64,000 nucleotides of DNA, taken from contig JAPNXP010000012.1 of the NCBI GenBank assembly GCA_028753945.1, positions 2,046,001 through 2,110,000 of the forward strand, read 5' to 3'. The position numbers were made by a program, and so were the translations under genes. Source of the stretch: Hexactinellida sp. DTS-2022. Lineage: Eukaryota; Porifera; Hexactinellida. The number at the start of each line of letters is the position of its first letter. Within the stretch, counting starts at the first letter, position 1. The notes below the pieces were generated by a model. The model made no database searches, was not told the DNA's origin, and saw only the letters and a program-made list of their open reading frames with translations. Shown in pieces: positions 3,636 through 46,473 of this stretch.

Positions 3636-4401
3636 TATACGGCTATATATGTCGCCGAGAAGGCCATAAAACAAAGAGGGTAGTTTCTAATTATAATTCT
3701 AGGATAAACTATGCTTCCTATTGTTGTTATTTTGGTTGTATATGGGGTAATCAACCATTGCGAGTCCATTAGAACCACTTCTGAGGATCTCAGATTTGTG
3801 GTTAAGCTGTTTAGGCGCCATTTAATGATGACACCACAAATATACACAAATTTACAATTCGAGTCTAAAGAACTACAAGAAAATGAAAATAATTTGCTAA
3901 TATACTTAGAACTTAGAATACATTTTCCGAATATATAATGAGAATGAATAGATATAAACCAGCAATTATATACGTTTTATGGACGAAAATAGTAAGTTGT
4001 AATTCGGATAATACTTGTATTTTAGCATGTGGTTGCTTATAATTTTTAAAAAGATTTAGAATGTCGCCATTTTGTGATTTAGTAGCCTTTGGGGTATGAA
4101 ATATATCCCTATTTTAGTATTCCTATTATAAAATTATCAGAAAGTAGGAAGTAACTGAAATTTATGATATTTGAAATTTTTTCATTTTACCAAAAATTGT
4201 TACCGTCATCATTAAATGGCGCTTAAATAGCTTAACCACAAATCTGAGATTCTCAAAAGTGGTTCTAATGGACTCGCAATGGTTGATTACCCCTTATACA
4301 ACCCTAATAACAACAATAGGAGGCATAGTTTATCCTAGGATAAAAATTAAAAACTGGCCTCTTTGTTTTATGGCCTTCTCGGCGACATATATAGCCGTAT
4401 A
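3636..4401. mobile_element. Foldback element with roughly 200-bp inverted arms
   Basis: Arms 3636-3835 and about 4200-4401 are near-perfect reverse complements: outer end TATACGGCTATATATGTCG, inner end AAATGGCGCC/CATCATTAAATGG. A 365-bp AT-rich loop without coding potential separates them. No clear TSD. The short ORFs read in the arms on both strands are mirror images of each other and are not genes. Confidence 0.7.
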
Positions 4402-4881
4402 TTAAGTAGGCGATGTGTGACGTCATTTCGACCAAGTGGTACCTCTTAAATATGTTTCTTGTCATGGCCACCTTTATAAAAACAATTACATACCTAGAAG
4501 CATCCTGAATTACTTATTTCGAAGAATAACTGATTGCATATATTTAGTTGAATCATGGCCTACTATATTATATGGCTAAATAAGTCAAGAATTTGCTCAT
4601 TTCATTTCCAGGCCAGTTTTACTTTTTAATTGCTCGTAAATGAATTACCTAGTCATGGAATAAACTGAACTTAGGTTTTCAAAAACGCTAGAAACATCTA
4701 AAATACTTTTGAGAATAGTTTCTCATCGGATTTAAACATAATGAAGCAATCAAATATACATACCCATATATGGTAATTAATACGAATTATTATCAGTGAT
4801 GTCGGATATAAGCACACCGGTTATAAGAACATATCGGATATAAGAAATTAAGAACACTATGTTGGAAACGGTTGCCATATA

Positions 4882-13005: not shown

Positions 13006-15130
13006 AAGAAAGTTACTTTATGAAGGATACATCTATATTAAAGATATACTCAATTGATTCTATTTCTGGCGCTGTGAGAAACGAGATTTACGCAATGGAC
13101 GTATAACAACACAGAGTTAGCGGATGTATACAAAAGCCACCTTCTACCCACACTCATCCTCCTGATTCTGCCGCTATTGAAGCTGTCAAAACTATTTGAT
13201 ACATAAAATTGCTATACACTGAGGAACCTACATCTTCTGTAATTCAGAATTCTACGAAATATATTTCGATTAAGGGTGATTCCAATCGCGATTTGAAATT
13301 TAATATAGTAACTTTTTATTTCTTCAGCGTAACAGCCTAAGATTTTTAACAGCATCTTTATATGCATTTCTAAGAATAACTAGATTTTAAAAAAATCAAT
13401 TTTCATTATGAAACTAAAATAATAAGAGAATTCTATAAATGGCTTCCCATAGACTATAACACAGTATAATATGCTTAAGTTAACTTAGTAGGAGTTCTTC
13501 CCAACTTCTATCTAATGGTTATTTATCAAATTGAATTACTTTTGAATATTCTAAACGAGCGATAACATTGAATTTAATTTTTCTATTCCGCTTGCTTTAC
13601 ATTTTACGAAATGATGTCTAGTTTTCTTCAATAAAGTGCATTTTTTCGTTAATTTTCAATCATAAATTTTTTTCAAATCCCTAATTGCATATTCTACTTC
13701 CGATTTTTTGTTCCTCTAAGTATATTGAAAAGAATGCAGTTCCAATTTTTCATCTTTATTATTTCAAAATCCCAAAACTAAGGTTTCTGTATGATCAAAA
13801 TGCCTGTTTTATTATTTTGAGATACAACCATTTGAATGTTAGGTGAATATTTCCCGTGATACTCCACCTTATGACTTTATTATATAATCTCACGTGTTTT
13901 GTAATATCCCCGCTGTATTTACATTAAAAATTATATTAGCTTTACTTTTATGCACATATTACAAATAATTTTCGCAGAAATTTGCTATGTAATCCAGAAG
14001 ATACCATATATGGAGGTGTGAAATTACGGAAATATCGGTGTTCCTAGAATTTTTCCACCAAATTTTGATTGAATTTTAGAAAATATAATATAAAGGTATA
14101 ATAATCTGCAAAAAAAACTTTTCGTACAACAGAAACCGATTTCCCGGAAATGTCAATTAATCACGATTGGAATCACCGTTAATGCAGCAGTCAAAATTCC
14201 CTCTAAAAACAGATTGTCAAAATCGTGCGGCGCGAGAGGAGAGCTCCAGATGATGATTTTTTCGAGTCGGTGCATACTACAAGAGGACAACAATTTTTTA
14301 TCTCTAACAATCCATAATTGGATTTGATTGTTCTCGGCACCCAGTAACATATCCAAATGCCAACCAGGTACCTCAACTGGTTTTGTGATGGTACCTTCGA
14401 TTCGGCGTCGTGGGATATTAATTGTATACAGGCGCGTAGGGCCCCAAGCCAAGGTGAGGGCTCCACAACTTCAGCTTCGACGAGTTTTGAATAATCCAAC
14501 CTAAATAATCATTACTAAAAAACATAATCATTAAGAATGGTTACATAATCGAGTTTACTAACCAAAACTACTCAAAATCTACTGTGATAGAAATGTTTAG
14601 TACATTAATTAACATATTTTACGGTATTTATGATGATAAAGGAGTTGATGAGGTCATCCATTCGTTTTCCACCCTTCTTTCCCCCCTGAACTAACTATTA
14701 TTTTCCTTACTTCCTTCCTAGTCTATTTCCTCTGACGAGATCCAGTGGAGCACCGACTGGCGGCTCCATGGAGCCTCCGTCAAATACGCCCCTGTTTGTA
14801 TACCATCCATGCTTTGCTTAATGAAACCGTCACTATTCCATTGGTATTTTGTTTTCCAAATCTAAAACTGAGATAGTGTAAAAGAAAATATTCTCAACTC
14901 TTAATTAAGGAGAACTATCCAATGCTCAATCCAGAACCTTAATGTTTGAATAGAAGGAGCTGCAATAAATGCATTTGCACAGGTTTTTCCTAATGCGGAG
15001 ATTAAAGGCTGTTTCTTTCACTTTGGCCAAGCTATATGGGGACATATTCAAACCTCGGGACTGCAACAACGGTATCAAAATGATGAAGAATTTCCTGTTG
15101 TAATAAGCAGTCTCAACACTAGAATTCGTA
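13006..15130 (+). pseudogene. FLYWCH-MULE transposase remnant (N-terminal and catalytic parts)
   Basis: Three blocks lie in order on the + strand. At 13006-13200 a FLYWCH-like finger reads RKLLYEGYIYIKD, FWRCEKRD.RNGRITT and HTHPPDSAAIEAVKTI. At 14150-14450 comes TTRGQQFFISNNP, LDLIVLGTQ and WFCDGTFDSA, the first-Asp block of MULE transposases (family: W..DGTF). At 14945-15080 comes EGAAINAFAQVFPNAEIKG and CFFHFGQAIWGHIQ, the second catalytic block (E.A..na....FP...GC.FH..Q). The blocks are separated by stops and by AT-rich DNA between 13200 and 14150. The C-terminal TNNP.EGWH part is absent here but present at 32544-33057 in a related fragment. The minus-strand frames over 14153-14499 are antisense shadows. 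Confidence 0.7.
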
Positions 15131-15414: not shown

Positions 15415-15610
15415 TCCTTCGTTAGGGACAGCGGAATAAGATCAACTTCAGGTAGGAATATGACCAACTAGCTTGATGCTAGGAATTAGATCAACATATT
15501 TTTTAAGTTAGGAATTAGACCAACGCAGTGGTAGGAATTAGACCAACGTATTTTAAAGTTAGGAATTACACCAACGCAGAGGTAGGAATTAGACCAACCA
15601 TATTTGGGAC
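15415..15610. repeat. Subterminal TAGGAATTAGACCAACG array of MULE-RING element 1
   Basis: Seven irregularly spaced copies of (T)AGGAATTAGACCAACG, from AAGATCAAC at 15438 to GACCAACCATA at 15603. They lie 3' of the MULE-RING gene. The same layout with a different motif is seen around the second MULE-RING element at 43.3-45.5 kb. Confidence 0.65.
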
Positions 15611-15803: not shown

Positions 15804-17196
15804 TTAAGTTCGACATATTGGACAGAGCATGTTCACTTCAATAAAATGCCGGCCACAATCTTGACATAGATTAGCGTGACCACAAGGAATGAGAGCGTAT
15901 GTTCCTTGTTTTGGATGACAACAAATTAACAAGTATTGTGGAAAGTATCATCACTATCATCACATAGTTTGATTCATCTGAAATTCTGTGATAATATCTG
16001 CGAACTGTCCAAGAGCATGTTTTCCACAACCACCAATTGTTGCTGAGACAGCAGCGAGATATTGAGTAATTGAATATGTTCCTCCTTGTAATTTTACTTT
16101 ACATGTATTTCTGCGGGCAGCATTTTCCAATGTTTGTCTCTTTGGTTTTCTTGTTATCTCAAGGCCTTGCTCTAATCTTTGGTATTCCAATTCAAAATCA
16201 AGTATGACCTTATTCAAATCAGATAAAAACTTCCATATATTTGGATGGTGAACTGTGATGACAGATTTCAAAGTTTTATGAAAGGCCTCTGCACCATTGT
16301 TTGTTGCATTCTCTTCAGAAAACACTGAAAGTTCATTTTGTCCTTTGATCCATGTCTTTTTATAATATACCTTCAACTTTTTGATCAGCGGATCCTATAT
16401 TTCATTATGATAAAATATTTCCTGTTCTAATATGGAGAAGGCCCCTAAAATTTCACTTTCAGGTAATAGTGGCAGTACCATTAGTTTACTAAGCCAATTC
16501 GCGGATACTTGATCAGACTTATACCTTAATGCAAGGCCTAAGAGTTGCGTTTTCTTCCAGATTGCTTGTGTAAAATGGAACTAACAGCCTATACGGTAAT
16601 ATTTCTCTCAGGGTAATAATGGAAGAATACATTGCGAGGTGCTCTTTCAAAATCGTAAACAGCAATTTTCGGAGAAAATTCAGGAATTATCTCGCGTATT
16701 TTCATCAAAACAATAGCATATGAGTCCTCCGTTTTAGTTTGCATTAATAAGTGAATGGCTATAATACAATGTCCGTAAACGATATGAAGATTGTAAAGAG
16801 CTGATAAAAAATTGACTGTACTGTGTAAAAAGTTTCATCAAATTGGATTTGATCAGCAACTTTCAATTTCATCAGCATTAAGTCCGAGGCAAATATAACT
16901 GCATATGCTCCACCACTGTTAGCGCTCCCCTTGCACAAATGGCGAATCTGGTATTAACTGACAAAAATCACCAGGGTTCAGAGGGAGAGGTAGGAGTAAT
17001 TTTCTTCTCCGTTTGCACATACTACCTTCCATCTGTCTAAACGGTCTGAAATGTTAGCAGGATTTTCACGACAGGTTTCATTGAACACCTGTCTTAGTCT
17101 CTCTGAAGAAGTTTCAGCAGCCCGTTTCAGTTTATTTTTTAATACGAATTCGTTTGACTATAAGCATTCTCATCATGATTATGATCATGAGTTAAT
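15804..17196 (-). pseudogene. FLYWCH-MULE-RING transposase, element 1 (degenerate)
   Basis: Read on the minus strand: HNHDENAY (end of a FLYWCH finger, about 17180), KRAAETSSERLRQVFNETC, QIQFDETF (first Asp block), HLLMQTKTEDSYAIVL, YDFERAPRNVFFHYYP (second block). Then 16376-15960 encodes SEENATNNGAEAFHKTLKS with HHPNIWKFLSDLN, the C-terminal MULE motif, and GGTYSITQYLAAVSATIG. An acidic CDDSDD linker encoded by a GAT/TGA-rich stretch (15945-15965) leads to a RING finger: ICCHPKQGTYALIPCGHANL, CQDCGRHFIEV, CPICRT, stop at 15804. The first RING CxxC and the linker each need a small frameshift. The 5' end is removed by the hairpin-cluster repeat at 17204. Confidence 0.72.
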
Positions 17197-17203
17197 AATA
17201 ACT

Positions 17204-17805
17204 AGTGCGCTTCGCTTGCTAGGTCGCTTCGCGGCAGACCACAACCACACACCAACCGCTTCGCGGTTGGTGTGTGGTTTATATACTCCTAATATCTATA
17301 TTATTAAATCTCGATTGTTGTTTGTGTGTGTGTTTGTGTGTTTGTGTGTTTGTCCGAATTGTATTAAAGTGATGGGGGAATAGAAACCGCATTTATTTTT
17401 GAGATATAAACTAACTTTCAAATGTTATAATGGGTAAACAAGTATGCTGAACACGAATTTCGCGTTTATAAATTTCTCATATGAATATTTGTTGTTGTTG
17501 TTTACACAAAATAGGTAAACAAATTAATGAAAATTCAAAATCAACCTACAAGTTAGCTTTCAATGGGTATTATAAGTAAACAAGTGTGCTGAACACGAAT
17601 TTCGCATTTATAAAATTCTAATATGAGTATTTGTTGTTGTTGTGGTTTACACAAATAGGTAAACAAATTAATGAAAATCAAAATCATAACGGCCCTTTCT
17701 ACTATTTCCATGGGAAAATGTGAGGAGTAAGGCCGCACAGCGGCTGTTAACTTGAGGTGCGTAGCACCAATCTGTCGCAAAGCGACCGAGAAGCGCAAAT
17801 AGGCC
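17204..17805. mobile_element. HINE/Helentron-like repeat with hairpin-cluster ends, copy a
   Basis: Order left to right: a GC-rich cap with a 17-bp perfect hairpin (17243-17279, loop TTC), ATTAAATCTCGATTG, a (GT)n-rich stretch, GTCCGAATTGTATTAAAGTG, two core units of about 125 bp carrying GTAAACAAGT and GAACACGAATTTCGC, then a second GC-rich end (GGCCGCACAGCGGC, GGTGCGTAGCACC, GTCGCAAAGCGAC). Core minisatellite, microsatellite and terminal hairpins are the hallmarks of Helentron-derived INEs; assignment is inference. Copies at 34650, 36786, 56810 (partial) and 58030. Confidence 0.65.
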
Positions 17806-32008: not shown

Positions 32009-32543
32009 TAATATGACAAAGAAAATATTATATATGAGTAATAAAAAATATATTGTTCATCGTTGTTTTTGAACTGAGCATAGTATGAAGGTTTCAACCT
32101 CATCCTTGCATCGGGAAAATTTCGATTTCACAATTACCCTCTAACCATACCTGCCGGCCTATTTGAGTCATATCCCTGTACGGGCTCCAATTTGCCCATT
32201 AGCCAAAATCGCTGGACTATCCAATCTTCTCGATCAATGCGCTCGCCCATCTAGGTAAACTAAGAGTCCGTCAACGAAATGTCCAGGCGACGATCTGTCC
32301 GACATTCATATTTGTTAATGTTACAATGGTTTAATCATAGTGACAAAGTGTATTAGTCGCGAGTTAGTTATTACAAAGGATAGTTTACTTAGGAATTTAT
32401 TTGACTATCTCTCCAATTTAAACAAAAGTTATGTTGTTGTTGAAAATTTGTAAGCAAATATTATGTTTCAATAAGTGAAAGTAGCAACCTGTAAAAGGTT
32501 GTTACTTTCTCTTCACCCAGGCAATAAATAGAAAGATAAATAC

Positions 32544-33057
32544 AATGGGCCTTCAAACGCTCTACAAACAAGATGTTGTAATGAATCAATTCATTCGAAA
32601 AACAGCAGATTAGCATTCATTCCTCCAGATCTAGTCTTCTTTGGCTGGAATATGGTTAAAACCATGGCACCTATTCGTCCAGAGAAACATGAATTCATGA
32701 ATTATTTTGCAGATACTTGGTTGGTAGGCCAGTTTCCACCCGTTTTGTGTAATGTATTCAGCCAAGACGCACACAACCCAAGGACAAATAATCCTGTAGA
32801 GGGATGGCATAATAAACTTAAAAGAATAGCTCGAAAGGCTCACCCAAATATTTACGAAATCGTAACGATTTCAAACAAGAGCAAGTGTTTACGGAAGTCA
32901 GTATTGCACAATTGGCATCAGGTGCTACACTGACAAAGAGAGCAAACAAGAGTGTTCAAAAAGATAATAGAATTAAAAAACTTAAAGAATATTTCGTGGC
33001 AAACCTGATCACTCTGGGTCAATATCTACAGGGACTTTCATTACTAACTATATTTTA
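32544..33057 (+). pseudogene. MULE transposase C-terminal fragment
   Basis: + strand blocks: GLQTLYKQDVVMNQFIRKTA, ALAFIPPDLVFFGW, FADTWLVGQFPPVLCNVFSQ, NNPVEGWHNKLKRIARKAHP with NIYEIV, then LASGATLTKRANKSVQKDNR and KEYFVANLITLGQYLQGL before a stop at about 33057. This is the standard C-terminal third of MULE transposases of the FLYWCH type. One or two frameshifts lie near 32870. The catalytic part is missing upstream, where only AT-rich DNA is seen. It may come from the same family as 13006-15130. Confidence 0.72.
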
Positions 33058-42756: not shown

Positions 42757-43113
42757 ATTCAATGGTTTTACAGGCCATCTGAAGTTCCAGCCTCTGTTCT
42801 TGATAGCCTAATGCAAGATCGCATTATCCAATCAAAAAGTCAAGATGAGTCTATTTCTCCGCTCTTGCTTGATCCTCAAATTCGAACGCGTGAACTTTTC
42901 CGTTGTGGCAGTACTAACAATGGAGAAAACTTTAATTTGACTTCTGCTACACTTATTAAGGGTAGGTGTAATGTATTGACGCTATCTGAAATAATCAATC
43001 TTAAAGATTATACATTATCCGATGACAATTTCTTTTGTATTCTTGGTTTTGACCCTATTACCAGAAGGCTCTCAGATTTTAAAGGCGAAATTCGTGTTGG
43101 TCCTAGCCATCAG
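42757..43113 (+). CDS. RERE-like: RERE-like exon 2: rest of BAH domain and start of ELM2
   Basis: This exon encodes residues 137-255. It follows a pyrimidine-rich acceptor (TTCTTCCCTAG). It continues the BAH domain with IQWFYRPSEVPASV, the counterpart of RERE VKWYYRQSEVPDSV. It then carries DPQIRTRELF, the KGRCNV motif and FFCILGFDPITRRL (RERE: FFYILGYNPETRRL). The last ten residues, GEIRVGPSHQ, start ELM2 and are almost identical to RERE. The exon ends CAG|GTAATT. Both boundaries coincide with places where the reading frame leaves family similarity, and both are phase 0. Length is 357 nt with no internal stop, which suggests the gene is under selection. Confidence 0.9.
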
Positions 43114-43354
43114 GTAATTTTATATGCATTATTAAGGACATTTCAAATAAATTCCAGTAAGCAATGCAGCATGGACCATCAAAACGCTTTTTCCTGAATT
43201 CGTATAATTTTTATCTTTGGATTGAACAGGCTTTGAAGTGTACTAAAATAGTTCCAATTAGTATTGTCCGAATTTAGAATACCTATTACTCGAATAGCAG
43301 CCTAGGTAGTTATTTATTGTGAATCCCCTTCAGCTGTGATTATACAGGGGAAAC

Positions 43355-45520
43355 CTGAATTTGTCCTAAATAAAATTGGAATTTGTCCTAAATATTTAAA
43401 TTGGATTCTGTCCTAAATATAATTGGAATTTGTCCTAAATATCAAAATTTTAAATTTGTTCTAAATATTGAAAACCGATATGTGTTTGTTTCTTATTGAA
43501 TATTAGCTATTATGGTTTCTTGTGGTATTTGTTTCTTACCAAACACTAACTAATAATGGGTGCATATTCATACGTCGTTTGAAATCAGTATATATTGATA
43601 GTTTTAAATTTATTCCCTCAATTCCCTTCGCATTTTCGTTCATCATGGAATATTCTATAATTGAAGGCAAGAAATTGAATTCAACTAATTACTAATGTCG
43701 AGGTTTTCGGTATGTAAAGTCCGGAGAATACGGCAATTCCATTTACACCAAGTGGGCATTATTTCGAAGCAACTCTTGTGCTTGCACTGGCAATATTGAC
43801 AAACAGACAAATCTTCTCGAATTAAACGCCCAACATAACCACGATGCTGCGATGCACAGATCTGAAAAGATTATCGTTAGCAATACTATTAAAAGGAAAG
43901 CTGAAGTATCATCAGCTAATCTCCGAGAAGTATTTGATGATACCTGCCGAGGACTAAATGAAGCGTCTTCAGTTACTTTCAAATCTTTAGAGAGCAGTAT
44001 GTTCAAGAGGAGAAGGATTCTGCAACCCAAGATACCCTCCTCTGCTTTAGAATTCGATTCCCTCTTGCAAGGATCACTTAGTTTCACAAATCATTTGCAA
44101 ACGATAATTACTATGGATGGAGTAGCAGTTATTTGGGGATCAAGTACGATGATGAATAATCTAAGTAATTCATCAACTATTCAGTTTGATGCAACATTCA
44201 AAGTTGTTCCGAGACTATTTTTCCAGCTATTTACAATTTTTATTAATGTTAGAGGTCATACTCTTCCGGCTTTGCATGTTTTGATGACTAGAAAAACTGA
44301 AAGACTTTACACGGCTGTATTGCTAACTATTCGGCGATTGATACCTGAATTAAATCCAACATTCGCAATGGGAGATTTTGAGCAAGCACCAAGGAATGCA
44401 ATGACAGCAGTCTTTCCTTCATTAACCATAATTGGATGTTGGTTACATTTACTAAAGCAATTTATGAAAATGTCCAGAAGCTTGGTCTATCTAAATTGTA
44501 CTTGCGAAATCATGACTTTTCAATGTGGATCCGAAAAATAATGGCTTTGCCTTTCCTTCCAGAAGATGAAATTGCATCTGTTTATTATTCTTTAGAGATA
44601 CCATCAATTGGTATAAATGAAGCTGAAAGAGAGTTGATTTCAAAGTTTCGGAAGTATTTCAACTAATAACGGAGCAGAATCGTATCATAAAACTTTAAAA
44701 TCGATTATTAAAACGCCTAATCCTAATGTCTGGAAGTTTATAGCATACTTAGATAACATAATATCAGACAATGACACCGAGTTACAGAGATTAATCCAAG
44801 ATTTGGAAACAACGAGAGGACCTTATTGCACCACCAAAGCTAAACGTATTAGCAGGAATATATACATAAAAAATATATTAACGGTTCTATAAATACAATA
44901 GAATATTTAAGTGGTATCGCAACCACAATAGGGCTCCAATCAGAAATTGCAGAAGATGAAGATACTAGTAATTCTGAAAGTATATCTGCACATACAAATC
45001 AAGAAGGGAATATATGCCATATATGCTTGCTAGGAAGAGAAGAGAACTTTGCACTCCTACATGAAGACTGTGTACACGGAGGCTTTTGTCAGGCATGTGC
45101 AGAACGCATAATTGACATGAAAGTAATATGTCCGATTTGTAGGGCAAAAGTAAAAGATATTTTGAAAGATTTCCAGTAGATATTTCAAAATAATTACTTC
45201 TAAGTTATAATCCAAACAAATAATCATTCTTTCAATGTATTTGTTTTATTTGCTCTCTTAAATTTCACTTTATTACTGTTTCTTTGGTAATAATAATTAA
45301 ATTCAATCGTTATTTACATTGCGATTTGACATTTAGGACAAATTCCAGTTTTAACATTTAGGACAAATTCCAGTTTTCACATTTAGGACAAATTCCAGTT
45401 TTCACATTTATGGCAAATTCAGTTTTCACATTTAGGACAAATTCCAGAATATTTAGGACAAATTCCAATTGCGAAGTTAGGACAAATTCCGGAACCTTTT
45501 TAGGACAAATTCCAGCTATC
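43355..45520 (+). mobile_element. FLYWCH-MULE-RING element 2
   Basis: The gene at 43700-45179 is bracketed by inverted subterminal arrays. On the left are five copies of GGAATTTGTCCTAAATA (43357-43475). On the right are eight copies of TTTAGGACAAATTCCAG (45330-45517). The outermost ends do not give an obvious long TIR or TSD by eye. The element lies in intron 2 of the RERE-like gene, in sense orientation. Confidence 0.72.
43700..45179 (+). pseudogene. FLYWCH-MULE transposase with C-terminal RING finger, element 2
   Basis: A FLYWCH-type finger reads FRYVKSGEYGNSIYTKWALF, C-A-C and NAQHNHDAAM. The main frame then runs to about 44541: IKRKAEVSSANLREVFDDTC, QFDATFKVVPRLFFQLFTIF (first Asp), HVLMTRKTERLYTA, MGDFEQAPRNAMTAVFPSLT and IIGCWLHLLKQ (second block). 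In neighbouring frames follow STNNGAESYHKTLKSI with NPNVWKFIAYLDN, then INGSINTIEYLSGIATTIG, acidic EDEDTSNSES, and the RING finger CHICLLGREENFALLHEDC with VHGGFCQACAERIIDM and CPICRAKVKDIL, stop 45177-45179. The RING has the C3HC4 order of E3 ligases. About three frameshifts break the gene. Domain order and linker match element 1 (15804-17196). The minus frame at 44965 is antisense. Confidence 0.8.
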
Positions 45521-46276
45521 CATTATACGGGTAGGCGATTACTAACATTAGCCGCCCTCGGGCTATCATTTGAATTCAATTACTATTTATTTTTGAGGAA
45601 AATATGTTAAATACCATTAACCTATTTACCAACTCGCCTTTCATATCACTCAGTGTGGAACAATGGGGTGAAAGGCCATATTTTGACTTTTGCTAAATGC
45701 TAAATTAGATGCATACATTCGACTCTTACATTATTTAAAGATTCGAAAAATGTTGTTATCATTTCCTTCGCTAAATACATCATACTTACACAATGTCTCA
45801 CATTTATGTATAAAATTGGATAAACCACAAATATCTATTTTACCATACGTTGCTCTATTTAATTCATTAATTTATGCTTGATTATTTGGTGTTTCAAACC
45901 ATATAAATGTATTCTTATACATTATTTGATAGATTTTAACTGGTTTTCAAACCGAATTAACAGTGTATTTATTTAGGAATTTTATTTCGGGCTATTTAAG
46001 AAATAACTCCCTGCATTGTGGCAAATGTTCCAACCGGCCGATTTTATAATTCAAACAATTGCGAGCTGTATAGTTTGCGTTTTCATATTGTCTATTTGTC
46101 TAAGCTTCGATATATAATCTTTATACACCCGCTCAAAGGCGCCATAATATATTTTTGAGCTAAAGTAAAAAGTTGGTCAATATATCGGACGGTTTTAAAA
46201 AATTCCCATTTTTAACATTAATCTTAATTGACTATTTTCCCTCCTAGTAGTTAACGAATAATGGTTTAAAATGATA
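45521..46276. other. AT-rich intron 2 stretch, nothing recognised
   Basis: No transposase-like frame, repeat end or RNA gene seen. The frames at 45690 and 45410 are AT-rich chance frames or lie over the MULE subterminal array. Confidence 0.3.
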
Positions 46277-46386
46277 CAGTACATAATAGATATAGTGATA
46301 TTGGATATAGTGATATATTGGATATAGTGATAATTTGGCCACAAATCAGATGTCCCCACCATAATCACTATATCCAATATGTACTG
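46277..46386. mobile_element. pogo-like MITE CAGTACATA
   Basis: 110 bp, TA-flanked (46275-46276, 46387-46388). Ends CAGTACATA / TATGTACTG, with repeats of GATATAGTGATAT and one inverted CACTATATCC. Confidence 0.65.
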
Positions 46387-46473
46387 TATTAATTTATTTT
46401 CTTCAATATTAACTATTGTAATCTGTACTAGCTCTTCAAATTTGACAATATTAGCGAATTAGTTTATAATATA

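Follow-up and report, generated by a model that had tools for sequence, protein, structure and literature searches.

The DNA analyzed here is a stretch of 64,000 nucleotides from Hexactinellida sp. DTS-2022 (Porifera; assembly GCA_028753945.1, contig JAPNXP010000012.1, positions 2,046,001 to 2,110,000, forward strand), referred to as the window. It contains a decayed Mutator-like element (MULE), element 2, in which a FLYWCH-like C2H2 finger, a MULE DDE core, an acidic linker and a C-terminal RING domain follow one another (Table 1). The array unit found at both ends is about 25 bp long and stands in opposite orientation at the two ends. The core gave a PF10551 match at 44179-44457 (52.9 bits) and retains the motifs FDATF, GDFE and NNGAES, and a stop codon follows the RING at 45177-45179.

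A sequence-only reading of this stretch had described element 2 as a MULE transposase fused to a RING. Finger, core, acidic linker and RING are indeed present in that order, but not in one open frame. A stop codon (43693-43695) lies within the finger and three frame changes occur between 44541 and about 44871, which indicates that this copy is dead. RING and finger are thus in different frames, and it is other copies that show the single-protein fusion. Since sister copies have one frame free of introns, the breaks are read as insertions or deletions; introns as their source are not favored.

Table 1. Coordinates of the two RING-bearing MULEs within the window.
Feature	Position	Strand	Remarks
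Element 2, whole MULE-RING element, decayed copy	43348..45521	+	8-bp ends beyond outermost array units; 9-bp target duplication, one mismatch
Element 2, left target site duplication ATTATACAG	43339..43347	.	8/8 offset as in L047, L048, L049, L053, L057
Element 2, right target site duplication ATTATACGG, one mismatch	45522..45530	.	
Element 2, left terminal array, units around GGAATTTGTCCTAAA	43348..43470	+	
Element 2, right terminal array, GGAATTTGTCCTAAA-type unit inverted	45325..45521	-	
Element 2, N-terminal FLYWCH-like C2H2 finger, two pieces, stop between	43645..43872	+	family profile 15.5 + 52.6 bits
Element 2, MULE DDE core, four pieces, two frames	44104..44939	+	family profile 180 + 78 + 81 + 9.5 bits
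Element 2, acidic linker, EDEDTSNSES region	44940..45011	+	translation
Element 2, C-terminal RING, cIAP/MEX3/MDM2 class, ends ...DFQ	45012..45176	+	PF13920 35.7 bits; family RING profile 65.6 bits
Element 1, RING, stop ahead of its tail	15807..15929	-	family RING profile 63.2 bits
Element 1, MULE core, four pieces	16032..16920	-	170 + 62 + 72 + 62 bits
Element 1, scrap of N-terminal finger	17151..17201	-	13.7 bits
Element 1, terminal array on RING side, units around GGAATTAGACC	15433..15598	.	

A MULE lineage with the RING in frame

The genome searched comprises 112.4 Mb in 18 contigs, and the analysis rests on this one genome. Sixteen long frames were checked from their start, and 14 of them are uninterrupted from the conserved first methionine of the finger to the stop, taking in MULE core, acidic linker and RING (L027, L028, L029, L047, L048, L055, L056, L059, L060, L061, L063, L064, L068 and L075; 527-609 codons from stop to stop). 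At least 14 copies thus have an intact finger-MULE-RING frame. L049 and L030, in which the beginning of the finger lies in another frame, were not counted as intact; in L062 and L067 the frame is long but the RING is broken. Stop-free frames of at least 500 codons were found at 30 RING loci, the start not being checked in each.

Pairwise identity among the intact proteins falls to 33%, which indicates that the layout is old. In the five intact RING proteins scanned, PF10551 scored 44.4-55 bits (cut-off 27.6), which places the RING-bearing elements in the MULE superfamily, and PF13920 was above its cut-off of 27 in all five. No Transib or Chapaev family appeared in the Pfam tables of these proteins; the core is that of a MULE. 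In an alignment of ten proteins (A2), the C2H2 positions of the finger (C108, C116, H135, H137) and core residues D253, D315, E435 and C336/H339 are invariant. The finger reported earlier as FLYWCH was found, although it can only be called FLYWCH-like, because its Pfam matches stay below the cut-off of 23.6 bits in RING-clade proteins (16.0, 17.5 and 16.1 bits in three, unlisted in two others scanned). No further conserved block was seen in the alignment outside finger, core and linker, nothing else exceeded a Pfam cut-off, and a scan of IMG/VR and a prokaryote genome collection with the full-length alignment gave no relative. The fusion of MULE transposase and RING is confirmed as real, and it is the standard layout of one MULE lineage in this genome.

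Three RING-tail searches, with queries of the window, L047 and L061 types (best 150 of 422, 481 and 567 candidates, respectively), found at least 311 distinct RING-tail loci. With this number, and with PF13920 scoring above cut-off in the window copy itself, the fusion is not a chance read-through, as the sequence-only reading had argued. A same-strand core of the lineage lies within the 1.5-kb flanks of 28 of 30 fetched RING loci (L009 being element 2 itself); L034 and L037 have none. Starting from the transposase, at least 46 of 150 MULE matches have a RING 200-1500 bp downstream among the matches listed (best 150 on each side), an undercount because both lists comprise the best 150 matches.

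The 20 next-best MULE places, sampled by their MULE domain with no regard to the RING, comprised ten loci with a RING, one lineage member without it (L052) and nine loci of RING-less families. The core of L052 is truncated as well, its second half being absent, and the open frames of L050 and L053 include no more than the first half of the RING. The objection that other copies of the family lack the RING thereby fails, since 10 of the 11 lineage-core loci in the blind sample have one and the exception is truncated. No RING was present within 1.5-kb flanks of the eight best MULE places (L001-L008), which belong to distant families. Ten further regions were taken, five (L059-L063) chosen with a RING already listed and five (L064-L068) without that knowledge; of the second five, two carry a RING (L064 and L068), one a broken RING (L067) and two no RING (L065 and L066). 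The lineage also accounts for 121 of the genome's best 150 PF13920 matches. Four of the 29 outside the MULE-RING list were inspected (L069, L071, L072 and L073), and L071 and L072 turned out to be MULEs too.

The family has been recently mobile. Over 2,794 aligned bp, L047 matches L049 at 99.7%, yet the sequences flanking the two are different; L048, with a longer array, is 98.7% identical to L047 over 2,614 bp. Directly beyond the 8-bp ends of L047, L048 and L049 lie the target duplications GTTTATAT, AAAAATGTC and ATTTCAGG. Duplications of 8-9 bp at the constant 8/8 offset were found in six of nine copies examined (L047, L048, L049, L053, L057 and element 2 of the window), with one mismatch in L053 and in element 2. 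Of ten RING-lineage loci inspected, eight are bordered on both sides by GGAATTTGNCC-type array motifs, L056 on one side and L042 on neither; of eight RING-less loci, one (L046) had a single stray motif. The elements thus show terminal inverted repeats and, in six of nine copies, duplications within the 8-11 bp expected of a MULE. Since ends and target duplications lie outside the RING, the RING is inside the mobile element. That it might be a neighboring host gene is ruled out by L047 and L048, where it shares a reading frame with finger and core and sits between terminal arrays and target duplications. Chance read-through and a host neighbor are both excluded by the unbroken single frames seen in many families and by element ends that lie outside the RING.

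A maximum-likelihood tree was built from 35 cores, 26 with a RING and nine without, and a single branch divides the two sets (support 100/100, present in all 200 bootstrap trees). The MULE-core tree that had been proposed as a check accordingly places the RING-bearing cores on one side of a single branch and the nine RING-less loci in the other clade. When L075 and the very diverged L071 were added, 18 RING and seven RING-less rows were still separated (100/99). The trees omit rows with short cores, identical rows, L052 and many broken copies. The split is compatible with a gain as well as with a loss of the RING. Distance matrices of core and RING correlate closely (r=0.88, p=0.0001, ten proteins): the two parts have kept company.

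L071 and L072 make up a MULE-RING subfamily that has diverged strongly, and their RING is similar to that of L069; downstream of L072 is a 43-bp array with GGAATAAGGCC-type units. The RING was possibly swapped in this subfamily. L069 and L073 are host RINGs that we take to be MGRN1-like and Neuralized-like, and both are possible RING donors, although a domain of 50 residues gives no firm tree.

The RING and its putative function

A profile search of solved structures with the RING gave cIAP2 (1e-9), MEX3C (4e-9) and cIAP1 (6e-9), followed by RNF4, MDM2 and MDM4 (to 7e-7). By this comparison, the RING belongs to the cIAP/MEX3/MDM2 class, several members of which dimerize through the C-terminal tail. 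Among 16 RINGs selected for complete tails (alignment A1), all have isoleucine or valine before the second cysteine, a CPxCR motif, a hydrophobic residue at the fourth position after the sixth cysteine and an aromatic residue in the tail. Positions of this kind serve in binding the ubiquitin-conjugating enzyme (E2) and in ubiquitin transfer.

The zinc ligands vary between forms of the RING. Cysteine and histidine were counted over distinct sequences matched by a pattern that fixes six cysteines. Short-type RINGs have cysteine and histidine at the two remaining places in 10 of 10 sequences. Long-type RINGs, the form of element 2, have a histidine five residues before the second histidine in 18 of 18, the second histidine in 17 and the intervening cysteine in 11. 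The third cysteine is often phenylalanine or tyrosine in the element 2 subfamily, and phenylalanine stands there in the intact L027. The long-type His-x4-His spacing is that of MDM2, which uses these histidines as zinc ligands, and the subfamily thus probably binds zinc in the MDM2 way. The claim of a complete C3HC4 RING in element 2 is correct in that all eight positions are filled, but with the third cysteine so often replaced, a histidine ligand as in MDM2 is more likely.

Selection was estimated as the ratio of nonsynonymous to synonymous rates (dN/dS) over 19 pairs; several dS values lie above 1 and are rough. Among intact proteins with defined dS, the RING gave 0.07-0.23 (four pairs) and the core 0.10-0.15 (four pairs), the RING dS being undefined or zero in seven of 11 intact pairs. 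The acidic linker gave 0.44-1.18 (five intact pairs with defined dS, the near-identical L055/L056 excluded). In eight pairs with a partial or broken copy, where defined, the values were 0.04-1.00 for the RING, 0.13-0.41 for the core and 0-2.57 for the linker; RING values of 0.49 and 1.00 come from near-identical window-family copies with one synonymous change. Near-identical intact pairs are uninformative: L047/L048 have no synonymous change, and L055/L056 have two replacement and no silent changes in the RING and one of each in the linker (0.21). On these ratios, the RING is under purifying selection and about as well preserved as the core.

These values bear on whether the RING could be a neutral passenger, captured once and kept by hitch-hiking. 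MULEs tend to pick up host gene fragments, according to the part of the literature concerned (PMC6446971), and the single branch between RING-bearing and RING-less elements would suit one capture. A neutral RING would have lost its frame, however, and the low RING dN/dS together with zinc ligands kept between proteins about one-third identical refutes the passenger explanation in the main; we regard it as highly improbable.

On balance we lean toward autonomous MULE transposons whose transposase carries its own C-terminal RING ubiquitin ligase (E3), putatively directed at the transposase itself or at its complex. An active E3 ligase is the likeliest reading of the RING, as suggested by the conserved residues and by selection. 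Ubiquitination of self or complex is favored because RAG1 is the nearest functional parallel, its RING being a ligase and RAG1 ubiquitinating itself. As to the substrate, our guess would fall on the transposase itself with about even confidence, and on a host factor with distinctly less.

In such a scheme, the N-terminal FLYWCH-like finger would read the GGAATTTGNCC units arrayed at both ends, and the DDE core would cut and insert the element, making the 8-9 bp target duplications. The RING, on its acidic linker and with its aromatic tail, might pair with the RING of another transposase subunit in the multimer; the paired RING would recruit a loaded E2. The first target would be the complex of transposase and ends, so that self-ubiquitination could limit the dose of transposase or dismantle the complex after insertion. 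Nearby chromatin or repair proteins may be ubiquitinated too.

Several observations weigh against this proposal. The genome also contains numerous copies of RING-less MULE families, so mobility of MULEs in general does not depend on a RING. The CPxC proline is lost in five of 29 long-type RING copies (L022, L023 and L035-L037), all in frames of less than 200 codons. Two of the nine copies examined, L055 and L058, gave no target duplication, and one side of L056 is without array motif. When three very distant MULE outgroups were included in the tree, the RING rows were split and two changes were needed, a single change being recovered in 4% of bootstraps; with branch lengths of 1.8-5.3, flagged as long, this placement is untrustworthy (long-branch trouble). 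The predicted structure of the window RING was of low confidence (predicted local distance difference test score 52, two window sequences) and was not used. Finally, cross-brace fingers occur at the C-terminus of other transposases, where that of piggyBac is described as binding terminal repeats and that of PiggyMac as weakly binding histone H3 (PMC8086355, in part).

This last precedent leads to a different explanation, in which the RING would be a structural or DNA/chromatin-binding cross-brace finger in the manner of piggyBac, without ligase activity. The elements offer many repeated end units for binding, and the RING dimer tail could serve transposase multimerization only. But DNA binding would not require the E2-contact positions and the arginine after the last cysteine, which are kept in 16 of 16 A1 RINGs. 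In addition, the RING is near neutral (net charge -2 to +3 in 11 proteins with intact RING) behind an acidic linker (-6 to -9), unlike the DNA-binding finger of piggyBac, which is described as positively charged in the portion of PMC8086355 dealing with it. We therefore consider a finger without ligase activity unlikely.

It could also be, as the sequence-only reading had allowed for, that the RING ubiquitinates a host target in place of the transposase, acting as a counter-defense or repair-steering effector carried on the transposase. The fast evolution of the linker between core and RING (the intact-pair ratios above), the divergence of the RINGs into several forms, as might be expected of a host-facing part, and the hundreds of copies would fit such a role. 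No separate substrate-binding domain was recognized in the alignment or by Pfam, however, and the best precedent, RAG1, is able to ubiquitinate itself (PMC4411706, passages on the RING). A ligase aimed mainly at the host seems improbable, and self- or complex-directed ligase activity is the reading that we carry forward.

Element 1 and other features of the window

Element 1, on the minus strand, belongs to a different subfamily and is still more decayed than element 2. It had been put forward as a second, diverged element with the same order of parts. Its core and RING were found, but of the finger only a scrap is left, and a stop cuts the RING, separating its last cysteine from the tail. Over 52 residues, the RING of element 1 shares 63% identity with its L047-family counterpart. 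Another core fragment of the same lineage lies at 14953-15111 (plus strand, 52 bits), oriented opposite to element 1. A further decayed MULE core occupies 32491-33043 (plus strand; 34, 27 and 12 bits), with no RING-profile match beside it.

Upstream of element 2, a host-like exon at 42757-43113 (plus strand) gave a BAH match of 26.6 bits (cut-off 30.8) and ends before GTAATT. Its ending, GEIRVGPSHQ, is reminiscent of RERE/atrophin. Element 2 probably sits in the intron that follows; a single pattern search for the next exon gave no match.

Two kinds of repeat were noted as well. Beside element 1, at 17405-17683, units of about 142 bp are repeated in tandem, and the same repeat also occurs in inverted arrays flanking the L047 element (L047:3-797 and 3944-4711). 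It looks like another, foldback-like repeat family that received a MULE-RING insertion. At 46270-46400, short GGATATAGTGATA repeats are followed by their inverted form, which resembles a small hairpin element.

Relation to known systems

RAG1, a recombinase that descends from a transposase, also carries a RING E3 ligase, and why it needs one is still debated. In a joint reading that we hold tentatively, and with somewhat less than even confidence, the lineage described here would be a second main DDE transposon lineage, unrelated to RAG1/Chapaev, with a RING E3 ligase permanent in its transposase; the RING would have been kept through deep divergence and hundreds of insertions while shifting between cIAP-like and MDM2-like zinc ligation; and the lineage would supply most of the top-scoring PF13920 RINGs of its host genome, the RING open reading frames (ORFs) of Ghost MULEs being broken remnants. 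If true, MULE-RING elements would form a permanent reservoir from which new host E3 ligases could arise, already joined to a DNA-binding partner, and transposons could in this way introduce RING E3 domains into host genomes.

Among the closest known systems is Tm1, a Phantom-subclass Mutator of root-knot nematodes whose 496-aa transposase has FLYWCH and MULE domains (PMC3169594, relevant sections). Both systems combine a finger (FLYWCH in Tm1, FLYWCH-like here) and a MULE core in about 500 aa with composite ends of many short tandem repeats, and both make 9-bp target duplications. The asymmetric outer motifs of Tm1 measure 7 bp compared to 8 bp here, its end-repeat sequence differs, and it is described in those sections without a RING (PMC3169594). 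Ghost MULEs of aphids, spiders and cnidarians are likewise invertebrate MULEs; in the most complete of them, from black cherry aphid, a RING zinc-finger ORF of 420 bp occurs together with a transposase ORF that is truncated (PMC6446971, in part). They differ in that the RING is a separate ORF, that no ends or target duplications are given in that account, and that the clade entry names a SWIM finger (PMC6446971). A C3HC4 RING is also mentioned there for one Phytophthora MULE (PMC6446971). Since element 2, with its frame broken, looks similar, Ghost elements may be decayed copies of the same fusion, which may explain the orphan RING ORF of the aphid Ghost MULE. In the open-licence full-text literature, a search that left Repbase notes and subscription papers aside, no MULE lineage with a RING in frame at the C-terminus was found to have been described.

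The host E3 ligases cIAP, MEX3 and MDM2 have RINGs of the same class by profile search, also at or near the protein end and with an aromatic tail, joined to BIR, KH or p53-binding parts and to no transposase. PiggyBac and PiggyMac are of a superfamily different from MULE, and in RAG1 the RING is N-terminal to the transposase-derived core. PiggyBac and PiggyMac resemble the present proteins in having a C-terminal two-zinc cross-brace finger on a transposase, and differ in its PHD-like or C1-like fold and in its binding of DNA or histone (PMC8086355, domain descriptions). RAG1/Chapaev, of the Transib superfamily, is alike as a DDE transposase lineage with a RING, and the RAG1 RING shows ubiquitin ligase activity (PMC4411706, in part). 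It differs in transposase superfamily, and in the MULE proteins the RING is at the extreme C-terminus. MULE-RING elements would therefore offer a testable parallel to RAG1, with the RING on the other end, a transposase of another superfamily and recent mobility.
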